A stretch of 35,721 nt of DNA. Origin: Acidiferrobacteraceae bacterium. GTDB lineage: Bacteria; Pseudomonadota; Gammaproteobacteria; Arenicellales; UBA868. Position 1 is the stretch's first letter, and every line of letters begins with the position of its first letter. The notes beneath the pieces are model-generated. The model made no database searches. It worked only from the letters and a program-made list of their open reading frames with translations, and was not told where the DNA came from. The stretch is taken from assembly GCA_018698075.1 (NCBI GenBank), contig JABINT010000185.1, forward strand, positions 1-35,721, written 5' to 3'. Shown in pieces: positions 1,329 to 17,148 of this stretch. The position numbers and the translations under genes are program-made.

Positions 1329-2258
1329 TTACCTTAAAACCATTGTAGTTAGTGCCTGGGTGTAGCGCCCGCGGTAGATCAGGCGGGTACACCCGGGCTG
1401 TGACGAGTCGATAAATCCATCACGTCGATGCAGTACGTTGTTGCATACCAGCCCTTCGCCCGGCAACAGCCGGCGAAATACAGCCAGATCAGCACACGAA
1501 TCCAGAATTTCTTGCAGTGCCGCGATGGCTTCACCAACCACGGGATCGCTTTTCCAGATAATGTTGCGCTTGCGTGCGCTATAGCGCATTTGCAGTACAT
1601 CACCTTCATGAGAAAAAACCGGCCCGCTCACGCTGGCACGCACGCCAGACCCGGCTGCTTCATTTTCAGGTATGGTCATTGTGTCTGACTGGCTGAGTGC
1701 CGCGGTGTATCGAGGATCACAACGGTGTAGCAGACCAAATACGATTTCATGATCAATGACCTGAAGTGTGCCGCCGCTCATGGCCGGGCGGACACAATGC
1801 AGCGCCATGGCCCGGATGGTGCGTTCTGGCGTATGGTAATAGCCATCAGTATGCCAGCCGATCGGACGGTTGCTGTAGGGAATATAGCGCTGATGCGTGG
1901 AGCTATGATTGACTTCGAGTTCACTCAGGCCGTCATCGGCGGCGCACAGGTTACTGTCTGGTTTTCCCAGGCCCAGTTGCGATGTCAGTGCCTGTATGGC
2001 CGCACGGTCAATATTTTCTGGTTGGCGACATCGATAGACGGCCATGTTGGTATCGCGAACGCGCACGGCCAGGGCGTGACGTTCGTTAGCGCTGAGTTGC
2101 AGTGGGTCGGCGATCTCGACGCTGAGATCTTCAATTGCTCTACGATAACGCGAAAGGCGTTCGTCCCACCAGCGTGAAAAATCGCCGCCGCTGAAGTGCG
2201 CCGATGTGCCGGATCGGGTCTTGGATGCCACAGTGACTTGCGGTTCAGAAAGGTTCAC
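1329..2258 (-). CDS. TauD/TfdA-like Fe(II)/2-oxoglutarate-dependent dioxygenase
   Basis: 309-aa ORF with GWHTDGYYH (HxD) and a distal His in NNVLHRRDGF, fitting the 2-His-1-Asp facial triad; C-terminal R-L-I-Y-R-G-R compatible with a 2OG-binding Arg. Confidence 0.75.
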   Translation of the reverse strand: MNLSEPQVTVASKTRSGTSAHFSGGDFSRWWDERLSRYRRAIEDLSVEIADPLQLSANERHALAVRVRDTNMAVYRCRQPENIDRAAIQALTSQLGLGKPDSNLCAADDGLSELEVNHSSTHQRYIPYSNRPIGWHTDGYYHTPERTIRAMALHCVRPAMSGGTLQVIDHEIVFGLLHRCDPRYTAALSQSDTMTIPENEAAGSGVRASVSGPVFSHEGDVLQMRYSARKRNIIWKSDPVVGEAIAALQEILDSCADLAVFRRLLPGEGLVCNNVLHRRDGFIDSSQPGCTRLIYRGRYTQALTTMVLR

Positions 2259-2500: not shown

Positions 2501-2516
2501 TATCCCTATAGGGATA
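2501..2516. promoter_or_regulatory. perfect 16-bp palindrome TATCCCT-AT-AGGGATA upstream of dsrA; candidate 7-2-7 NarL-like binding site
   Basis: Read directly in sequence; each half-site matches the NarL heptamer TACYYMT at 6 of 7 positions. Confidence 0.5.
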
Positions 2517-2724
2517 AGGTGGATTTTTGTGAGGCATACCCTCCCGGGGAATGGTGCGACCTCGGGCAGTGCATACAATGGACTCACATCAGCACCCTCG
2601 TGGTACGGACCTTGGTGTCGTAAGACCTTCTGCACGCGGGCAGCACAGCCCAAGCCAACGAATCGTGTATCGAGACGGCGCTTATCACCTTATGGTGCCA
2701 CAAACGCAATGGAGTAGCCCTGTT

Positions 2725-3993
2725 ATGGCTGATAACAAGCAACATGAAACCCCGATGCTGGATGAACTGGAGAGCGGCCCCTGGCCGAGTTTTGTCTCTG
2801 GGATTAAGCGCCTGCGTGACGAGCATCCGACTGATCGTATTAACGGGGTGGCGAATGATCTGCTCGGCCAGCTCGAGCACTCCTACGAAACCCGCAAGGG
2901 TTACTGGAAAGGAGGCACGGTAAGCGTTTACGGTTACGGTGGTGGAATCATCCCGCGGTTCTCAGAAGTCGGTCAGCAATTCCCCGAGTCCAGAGAGTTT
3001 CACACCGTGCGGGTTCAACCGCCCGCCGGTAACCACTACAGCACCGATATGCTTCGCCAACTGGCCAACAGTTGGGAGAAATGGGGTTCGGGCCTGGTGA
3101 CATTCCATGGCCAGACCGGGAACATCATGTTTATTGGCGCGACCACGGATAACACCCAGCACTTCTTTGACGATATTAACGACTATGGTTTTGACTTGGG
3201 CGGTGCCGGCCCGTGTGTGCGTACCGCCATGTCCTGTGTCGGCGGCGCGCGCTGTGAACAGTCGTGTGCCAACGAACACAAGATTCATCGAACTTTGGTT
3301 AATAACTTTACTGATGACGTGCATCGCCCAGCTCTACCGTACAAATTCAAATTCAAGGTGTCGGGTTGTCCCAACGACTGCATGAACTCAATCGAGCGCG
3401 CCGACATGGCGGTAATTGGAACCTGGCGCGATGACATGAAAGTCGACCAGGAAGCCTGGAAATCCTATGTTGCGAAAAAAGGTCGTCAGCACACCATCGA
3501 CAACATCATTACCCGGTGCCCGACCCGTTGCATGAGTCTTAAAGATGATGACTCAGTTGAGATCGACAACCGGAATTGTGTGCGCTGTATGCACTGTCTG
3601 AACGTCGTTCCCAAAGCACTATCGCCCGGAGACGACAAGGGCGTAACGGTCCTGATGGGCGGCAAACGGACACTGAAGATCGGCGATCTGATGGGCACGG
3701 TGATCGTGCCGTTCATGAAGCTGGAAACCGAAGAGGACTACGAGAAAATTACCGAGATCGCGGAAAGCACTATCGATTTCTGGGCAGAAAATGGCCTTGA
3801 GCACGAACGCTGTGGTGAGATGATCGAGCGCATCGGTCTGGTCAATTTCCTCGAGGGGGTTGGTATCGACGTCGATCCGCACATGATTGCCAGTCCGCGT
3901 CAATCTTCTTATGTGCGCATGGATGGCTGGGATGAAGAGGCGGTTAAATGGTTTGAGCGCCAGGCCGAAGATCGCCAGTCAGCAGCCGGTTAA
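2725..3993 (+). CDS. dsrA: reverse dissimilatory sulfite reductase alpha subunit
   Basis: MADNKQHETPMLDELESGPWPSFVSGIKRL...; siroheme/FeS Cys motifs CVGGARCEQSC and SGCPNDC; ferredoxin insert NCVRCMHCLNVVPKAL. Internal ATG at 2725 preferred over the ORF-track start at 2551. Confidence 0.95.
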   Translation: MADNKQHETPMLDELESGPWPSFVSGIKRLRDEHPTDRINGVANDLLGQLEHSYETRKGYWKGGTVSVYGYGGGIIPRFSEVGQQFPESREFHTVRVQPPAGNHYSTDMLRQLANSWEKWGSGLVTFHGQTGNIMFIGATTDNTQHFFDDINDYGFDLGGAGPCVRTAMSCVGGARCEQSCANEHKIHRTLVNNFTDDVHRPALPYKFKFKVSGCPNDCMNSIERADMAVIGTWRDDMKVDQEAWKSYVAKKGRQHTIDNIITRCPTRCMSLKDDDSVEIDNRNCVRCMHCLNVVPKALSPGDDKGVTVLMGGKRTLKIGDLMGTVIVPFMKLETEEDYEKITEIAESTIDFWAENGLEHERCGEMIERIGLVNFLEGVGIDVDPHMIASPRQSSYVRMDGWDEEAVKWFERQAEDRQSAAG

Positions 3994-14898: not shown

Positions 14899-15219
14899 AT
14901 GTTGTTGCGTATAACGGAAAAGGCTGCAAAACAGATTCTTGTTTCAGCAAACAGCAGTGCTATGCAGAACCTGGCACTGCGCATTGCTGGCCTGCGTGTG
15001 GCCGATGGGTCGATCGAGTACGCGATGGGTTTTGATGAGCCAGCGGAAAATGACACCCGCTTCACTCAGCACGAGGTAGATATTCTGATAGCACCGACCA
15101 GCACGGAACTGCTTAGCGGCGCTGTGCTTGATTTTGACACGCCAGAAAATGAGACTGAGCCGCAGTTTATCTTCCTCAACCCAAACGACCCACTGTTTGA
15201 GCCGCCTGAGTCAGACTAG
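14899..15219 (+). CDS. dsrR: DsrR, A-type (IscA-like) protein lacking the Fe-S-coordinating cysteines
   Basis: 106-aa IscA-like protein (LRITEKAAKQILVSA...LRIAGLRVADGSIEYAMGFD); no Cys in the ORF; position after dsrN. Confidence 0.85.
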   Translation: MLLRITEKAAKQILVSANSSAMQNLALRIAGLRVADGSIEYAMGFDEPAENDTRFTQHEVDILIAPTSTELLSGAVLDFDTPENETEPQFIFLNPNDPLFEPPESD

Positions 15220-15364: not shown

Positions 15365-16492
15365 GTGGATATAGCCGGCCCATCGAACGACCCACGTGCT
15401 GACCCTGGGGTGCCTTTAGGTACAACTCCATCTGCCAGTTCTCTGCCGCCCACAGGACGAGCTTTGCAACAGCGCTTTCAATGGTTGGCTGCCTTAATTC
15501 TGTTTCTGGCCATGGCAGCAACTGCGCTCGCATTGATACTCAGTATTCGCCCCGCCGCCCCCGGTCAGTTGGGTGCCTGGCTTGCGGCGACGTCCGTGGT
15601 TCTACTGGTGAGTCTTGGAGTTTTGCTGGCGCGGATACGTCAGTGGTTACTATGGCCGTTGCTACAGGTACGGCTTTGGGCATCTGAGATTCGCCAGGGC
15701 GACTTTTCTTCACGGCTGCAGTTATCCGACCCCGAAGCCATGAGTGGCCTGGGTGAGGACATCAACCGGCTCGCCGAGTGGCTGGAATCTCTGGCGCATG
15801 AGCGCGAGCATGAGTTACAGGCGCAACGGGATCGCCTGGAGGAGCGCGCGCAACTTGCCAATGAGTTACATGATTCTCTGGCCCAGACATTGGCCAGTTT
15901 AAGATTCCAGGTTCGTGTGCTTGACGATACTTTGCGCCAGGACAATGAATCGGCAGTATGGCAGGAGATGGAACGTATCCAGGGCAGCCTGGACGAGGCC
16001 AACGTCGAGTTGCGCGAGCTGATCGCGCATTTTCGGGCCCCCGTCTCCAAGCATGGGCTGATGCCCGGTATCCGTAAGTTGCTGTCACGTTTTCGCAAGG
16101 AAACCGGGACCGAGGCCGTTTTACAAAATCAGGCGCCTGATGTGGAACTTGGCGCCGAAGAAGAAAACCAGGTGTTGCGTATCGTCCAGGAGGCTTTGAC
16201 CAATGCCCGCAAGCACAGCCGGGCCAACATGGTTCGGGTGTTGCTGAGCGAGGACAACGCGGGTCGTTTTCGGGTGATTATCGAAGATGATGGCATCGGG
16301 TTTACACCAGGGGCCGAGGATCGCGACACAGACCGTCATTTCGGACTGGCAATCATGCGCGAACGTGCAGAGGCGGTGGGGGCCGCTCTTGGTGTCGAGA
16401 GTGAACCGGGAGAGGGCACCCGCGTGGTTGTGGAACTGTCCCTGAAGGATACTGTTGCCGATGGGCTTGAGACGAAAGCAGGAGTCTTATGA
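15365..16492 (+). CDS. NarX/NarQ-like sensor histidine kinase (HisKA_3/HATPase), GTG start
   Basis: ELHDSLAQTLASLRFQVRVLDD (HisKA_3 H-box), LRIVQEALTNARKHSRAN N-box, DDGIGF and HFGLAIMRERAEAVGA G-boxes; two TMs with a very short loop. Confidence 0.9.
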   Translation: MDIAGPSNDPRADPGVPLGTTPSASSLPPTGRALQQRFQWLAALILFLAMAATALALILSIRPAAPGQLGAWLAATSVVLLVSLGVLLARIRQWLLWPLLQVRLWASEIRQGDFSSRLQLSDPEAMSGLGEDINRLAEWLESLAHEREHELQAQRDRLEERAQLANELHDSLAQTLASLRFQVRVLDDTLRQDNESAVWQEMERIQGSLDEANVELRELIAHFRAPVSKHGLMPGIRKLLSRFRKETGTEAVLQNQAPDVELGAEEENQVLRIVQEALTNARKHSRANMVRVLLSEDNAGRFRVIIEDDGIGFTPGAEDRDTDRHFGLAIMRERAEAVGAALGVESEPGEGTRVVVELSLKDTVADGLETKAGVL

Positions 16493-17148
16493 ATGTACTG
16501 ATAGTGGATGACCATGCACTGTTCCGGGTCGGGCTGCAAGGATTGTTGGAGCGCCGTGGTATCGAGATCATTGGCACCGCGGCAGACGGTGAGGAGGGCA
16601 TTCGTCTGGCACAGGAACTGCACCCCGATGTGGTGTTACTGGACCTGCGAATGCCGGAACTGGGCGGATTGTCGGTGCTACGCCGTTTAGCCGATCAGGG
16701 TTTGGATGTTCCGGTGGTGATGCTGACAACCAGCGCCGATGAGACCGATCTTTCTGAATCACTGCGCAATGGCGCACGCGGTTATCTACTGAAGGACATG
16801 GAGCCCGATGAGCTGATTGTAGCGTTGCAGGATATCGTTGCAGGCAAAATTGTGGTCGCACCGGGCCTGACCGGTGTATTGGCAGATCTGGTGCGCCATG
16901 GTGACCGACGCGAACGTAAGGACGAAATGGCTCCGTTCAGCAGTCTCACCCCGCGCGAGCACGAAATTCTCTGTCACCTGTCTGAGGGGCAAAGTAATAA
17001 GGTGATCGCCCGTCACCTGGACATCTCGGACGGAACCGTAAAACTGCATGTCAAAGCCATTTTACGTAAACTGAGCGTGCATTCCCGTGTTGAGGCCGCC
17101 GTAATGGCTGTCGAAAAAGGCGTTTGCTCACGCCACAAGCGTGACTGA
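16489..17148 (+). CDS. NarL/FixJ-family response regulator
   Basis: REC domain (LIVDDHALFRVGL...VVLLDLRMPELGG) plus LuxR/GerE HTH (LTPREHEILCHLSEGQSNKVIARHLDISDGTVKLHVKAILRKL); 4-bp overlap with the kinase gene. Confidence 0.92.
   Translation: MNVLIVDDHALFRVGLQGLLERRGIEIIGTAADGEEGIRLAQELHPDVVLLDLRMPELGGLSVLRRLADQGLDVPVVMLTTSADETDLSESLRNGARGYLLKDMEPDELIVALQDIVAGKIVVAPGLTGVLADLVRHGDRRERKDEMAPFSSLTPREHEILCHLSEGQSNKVIARHLDISDGTVKLHVKAILRKLSVHSRVEAAVMAVEKGVCSRHKRD

Follow-up and report, generated by a model that had tools for sequence, protein, structure and literature searches.

NarL of Escherichia coli, partnered with the kinase NarX, is the described regulator closest to the one considered here. 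Acting alone, NarL activates the ogt promoter through sites at -44.5 and -77.5 (PMC7419079), and one NarL site, placed at -77.5 and thus 65 bp above the -10 element, suffices for activation (PMC9314961); NarL can repress too, at frdA, and an engineered NarL site used in electromobility shift assays has the sequence TACCCCTAAAGGGGTA (PMC4549865). Control of inorganic sulfur oxidation genes has been attributed to the two-component systems RsrSR (Acidithiobacillus caldus) and RegBA (A. ferrooxidans), and to a sulfide sensor and a sulfane-sulfur sensor in Bacillus licheniformis. These systems resemble the pair described below in the type of gene they control; in the accounts consulted, however, none is presented as a NarL-like pair of a dsr cluster or as a controller of dsrA. 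A search of the openly licensed literature, a scope outside which most subscription papers fall, returned no earlier description of a dsr-linked NarL-like pair. The dsr pathway is one of the main routes by which sulfur is oxidized in the sea, sediments and animal symbionts, and to our knowledge hardly anything has been established about how its genes are switched on.

We put at roughly 83% the probability that a palindrome upstream of dsrA serves as the main site of a dedicated, NarL-like two-component activator whose genes close the dsr cluster, a reading drawn from sequence comparison.

A palindrome conserved upstream of dsrA

The window (the whole stretch of DNA analysed, 35,721 nucleotides) carries the following features around the start of its dsr operon:

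1329-2258, minus strand: TauD-like dioxygenase gene, divergent, bordering the intergenic region opposite dsrA; not considered a target
2478-2492, unstranded: imperfect palindrome CTTGTGCACTGCAAG / TTGTGCACTGCAA, 9 bp upstream of site 1
2501-2516, unstranded: site 1, TATCCCTATAGGGATA, perfect 7-2-7 palindrome; predicted main site of the NarL-like regulator, centre at about -77.5
2535-2552, unstranded: site 2, CATACCCTCCCGGGGAAT, degenerate inverted repeat; predicted to be a second, weaker site, near -44 to -41
2574-2579, plus strand: TACAAT, -10 box of the predicted dsrA promoter, which has no good -35
2586, plus strand: inferred dsrA transcription start, 12 bases past the first base of the -10 box
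2725-3993, plus strand: dsrA, first gene of the dsr operon, predicted target

A previous sequence-only reading had singled out the element at 2501-2516 as a perfect 16-bp palindrome with the geometry of NarL-type sites (TACYYMT-N2-AKRRGTA). Inspection of the sequence confirms the palindrome; TATCCCTATAGGGATA is symmetric over all 16 bp, and it shares with NarL 7-2-7 sites the inverted heptamers, the 2-bp spacing and six of the seven positions in each half. Compared with TACCCCTAAAGGGGTA, it differs by one base per heptamer. The window holds no second match to TATCCCTATAGGGATA at up to three mismatches (0.04 expected), and the genome to which it belongs (2.67 Mb in 203 contigs) has this single exact match.

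Simple arithmetic gives about 0.5 perfect 16-bp palindromes by chance per 35.7 kb, and about 0.007 in the 466-bp intergenic region between the TauD-like gene (1329-2258, minus strand) and the ATG of dsrA at 2725, so that the palindrome by itself is weak evidence. The case for site 1 is strong because it is conserved. Among relatives found through DsrA (33 genomes of the same family and 80 named genome contigs), all 82 of the dsrA upstream regions scanned contained a close match to TAYCYC-N4-GRGATA, imperfect in a few; the organisms include close marine relatives and reach as far as Thiogranum and the Solemya velum symbiont. Conservation in relatives was one of the checks that the sequence-only reading had set for its palindrome, and this check did not refute it: the conservation extends over many families. 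An exact pattern search within the family returned between none and a few such sites per genome, the recurring one being that of dsrA. Site 1 is therefore real, far beyond chance. In the aligned promoters conservation ends at 16 bp and the two inner bases are free; measured against the NarL heptamer TACYYMT, the third base is T, not C, in 78% of the relatives, and the seventh base is variable.

The imperfect palindrome at 2478-2492, which had also been pointed out before, is present as described, and no other perfect TTGTGCAYTGCAA occurs in the genome, but its conservation is restricted to close relatives; it is perhaps the site of another regulator.

Layout of the dsrA promoter

The start of dsrA at 2725 (MADNKQHE...) is kept in relatives. 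The TACAAT box at 2574-2579 and the poor -35 hexamer ATGGTG at 2551-2556, both proposed earlier, lie at the positions given for them, and no consensus sigma-70 promoter was found between 2250 and 2750. When 164 dsrA promoters, reduced to 130 non-redundant sequences, were aligned on the palindrome, a -10-like hexamer formed a sharp peak at +72 from site 1 (z 21), and a degenerate copy of the site formed another at +32/+33 (z 13.5), with the best second site falling within +30 to +36 in 110 of the 130 promoters. How far the palindrome lies from the start of dsrA, by contrast, varies by more than 200 bp. In the window, site 2 is weak, scoring -8 to -10 where the background averages about -35.

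Setting the -10 box at -12 to -7 places the centres of the two sites at about -76.5 and -44, and that of the window palindrome at -77.5. The earlier proposal of a NarL-type site near -77 in an activator-dependent promoter, with the product of 16489-17148 as binder, is supported by conservation over families, by the fixed distance to the -10 box and by the association of the site with that regulator (below); what it had missed is the degenerate second site near -44, which is part of the design. The modal spacings of the 130 promoters reproduce the ogt arrangement of sites near -77.5 and -44.5 above a -10 box, although the start is an inferred one and site 2 of the window is weak. As at ogt, two sites about 33 bp apart, near -77 and -44, lie upstream of the -10; the dsrA promoters differ in the degeneracy of site 2, in the gene served and in the regulator. 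Recurrence of the ogt layout in distant organisms argues for an activator of the NarL type.

The kinase-regulator pair and its association with dsrA and the site

Further downstream in the window lie three adjoining genes:

14899-15219, plus strand: dsrR-like gene (Fe-S_biosyn family), lying before the kinase gene, as it does in most relatives
15365-16492, plus strand: histidine kinase with a NarQ/NarX-like transmitter and, by reading, two membrane segments, without a PilJ or GAF domain
16489-17148, plus strand: NarL-like response regulator, predicted binder of sites 1 and 2

The product of the last gene contains Response_reg (E 3.2e-29) and GerE (E 1.1e-20) domains and is accordingly a NarL/FixJ (LuxR-type) response regulator; among solved structures its best relative is NarL of E. 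coli (1a04, E 1.5e-48), and the TVK-x-HVK core of the NarL recognition helix is kept. The genome encodes a single protein matching the regulator at E <1e-30. Along with regulator architecture and recognition-helix core, the likeness to NarX/NarL takes in the transmitter of the kinase. The two systems differ in that the dsr regulator scores 230.3 bits against the NarL model, below the curated cut-off of 250 (NarL is still its best model), and in that the dsr kinase lacks the PilJ nitrate-sensor domain, to which none of ten kinases gave a match. Judged by these two properties the pair is not NarX-NarL, and the regulator, as far as sequence can place it, is NarL-like but not NarL. The kinase itself remains well below the cut-offs for NarQ (180 versus 553 bits) and NarX (132 versus 578 bits). 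Without a nitrate-sensor domain, a periplasmic nitrate signal of the NarX kind is unlikely. Distant homologues of the kinase mostly carry a GAF domain, and sometimes HAMP, whereas the window copy has a gap at the position of GAF; since the domain occurs in many distant lineages, sensing may have changed within the family.

The pair is linked to dsr genes and not, as NarX/NarL, to nitrate reductase. Within the family it adjoins dsrR on every stretch where both were recognised, and in distant lineages the order dsrN-dsrR-kinase-regulator recurs, even where the dsr cluster is split; in 5 of 20 distant neighbourhoods no recognised dsr genes adjoin the pair. Where dsrA and the regulator share a contig, the regulator lies 13-23 kb downstream on the same strand in 54 of 61 cases. 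In a set of 370 gammaproteobacterial genomes, dsrA and the regulator occur together in 115, dsrA alone in 9, the regulator alone in 10 and neither in 236 (Fisher p 1e-71, the species not being independent). The ten genomes with the regulator and no detected dsrA may be incomplete or may use the regulator in another role.

Presence of the site follows that of the regulator. Among 112 dsrA-bearing genomes with enough upstream sequence, 98 of the 104 that have the regulator also have the site, as against one of the eight that lack it (Fisher p 4e-7, again with species that are not independent). The site threshold was one passed by 1.9% of dinucleotide shuffles, and the matrix had been trained on relatives that may in part be present in the test set as well; under stricter thresholds the contrast was weaker but held (p 3e-5 to 4e-3). 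Six regulator-bearing genomes had no detectable site, and some others had partial sites only. Seven genomes have neither site nor regulator and represent three families (f32, f123 and f134, the genomes of the last being about 1 Mb), and the one genome with a site and no regulator, G417, is incomplete and of the same genus as the regulator-bearing G100.

Eleven genomes carry two copies of dsrA, and the second copy often shares no more than 65-69% identity with the query; the motif is present upstream of some second copies (G391, G364) and absent from others (G213, G271).

Proposed switch, rival readings and sites beyond dsrA

These comparisons suggest that the palindrome is very probably the docking site of a switch that turns the dsr genes on, with the regulator at 16489-17148 as its likely binder. 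In the proposed sequence of events, the kinase (15365-16492) would phosphorylate the regulator, which would then bind as a dimer, with high affinity at the 7-2-7-like palindrome near -77 and less tightly at the weaker site near -44, and recruit RNA polymerase to a sigma-70 promoter in which no -35 accompanies the -10 box. The dsr operon would thereby be switched on, and probably the genes of the pair as well, if they are co-transcribed with dsr; the signal would probably be the sulfur or redox state of the cell and not nitrate sensed as in NarX.

The rival that survives best, though we consider it unlikely, accepts the regulator as binder and alters its action: it would bind the palindrome as a repressor, or activate only under nitrate or low oxygen, coupling dsr to the electron acceptor instead of to sulfur. 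Repression of frdA by NarL (PMC4549865) provides a precedent, NarL comes closest to this regulator, and marine relatives come, by the titles of their records, from low-oxygen waters. Against repression, sites at -77 and -44 in front of a promoter without a -35 fit activation; against a nitrate signal stand the ten kinases in which no PilJ domain was found and the GAF domain that distant ones mostly have.

It is distinctly less probable that another protein, for example a further LuxR-type regulator or DsrC, binds the palindrome and that the NarL-like pair has a different target. A helix-turn-helix-like motif is present in DsrC, which reportedly binds dsr promoter DNA, as proposed for the region upstream of the dsr genes of Allochromatium vinosum (Grimm et al. 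2010); moreover, the identity of a binding protein is not provable by sequence alone. The motif and its geometry are nevertheless those of NarL, and the genome offers only one candidate at the E value given above. As for DsrC, its gene lies in the dsr operon, so that its binding by itself would not account for the loss of the site from dsrA-bearing genomes without the regulator (seven of eight, in a search that covered dsrA, the regulator and the site).

Very improbable, and rejected here, is that the palindrome serves the divergent TauD-like gene instead of dsrA. This gene, which gives weak matches to trimethyllysine and gamma-butyrobetaine dioxygenase models, is divergent to dsrA in 69 of 80 loci. 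However, site and gene each occur alone: nine loci without a detected TauD match keep the site, while G305 and G392 keep the TauD-like gene and have neither regulator nor site, indicating that the site goes with the regulator and not with TauD. No promoter geometry, neither a fixed -10 nor a second site, was found on the TauD side.

An RNA hairpin, terminator or attenuator, for which the ability of the palindrome to fold as RNA (z -2.3) and a terminator-like match on the minus strand could be cited, is more improbable still and was rejected, as the palindrome lies some 77 bp upstream of the inferred start, its conservation stops at 16 bp with the inner two bases free, and its distance to the -10 is fixed. 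Least credible of all is a chance palindrome, for although one such element would be expected in about every second stretch of this length, conservation and fixed geometry across families contradict it.

The NarL-like activator is the preferred reading. We also lean, with appreciably less confidence, towards a broader one, in which most dsr-type sulfur-oxidizing Gammaproteobacteria would share one dedicated switch. This relative of NarX-NarL would have exchanged nitrate for a sulfur or redox signal from inside the cell; it would be passed on together with the dsr cluster, act on a fixed two-site promoter and in some lineages extend to sulfite oxidation further down the pathway (sat and a soeA-like gene). 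The regulator, its site and the promoter layout are hereby named over many families and, if the reading is true, would provide a marker for predicting dsr control in uncultured sulfur oxidizers.

The sole general target found for site 1 is dsrA. When 30 genomes were scanned for each of the two genes, clear sites upstream of the soeA-like gene (a molybdopterin oxidoreductase read as soeA, for sulfite oxidation, for which no curated model reached its cut-off) were seen in few lineages only, G099 (on L365) and G182, with weaker ones in four other genomes; clear sites about 100 bp upstream of sat (sulfate adenylyltransferase) were seen in G370 (on L367) and G166, both of one family. Being clear in so few lineages, these are not general targets; they fit the pathway but are lineage-specific. 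A wider regulon was considered and rejected on the same grounds, and four of the five two-mismatch matches to TATCCCTATAGGGATA in the genome of the window fall within open reading frames. In one further genome, G135 (L370), two strong sites (2026-2041 and 2061-2076) lie 35 bp apart in an intergenic region with no large gene close by.
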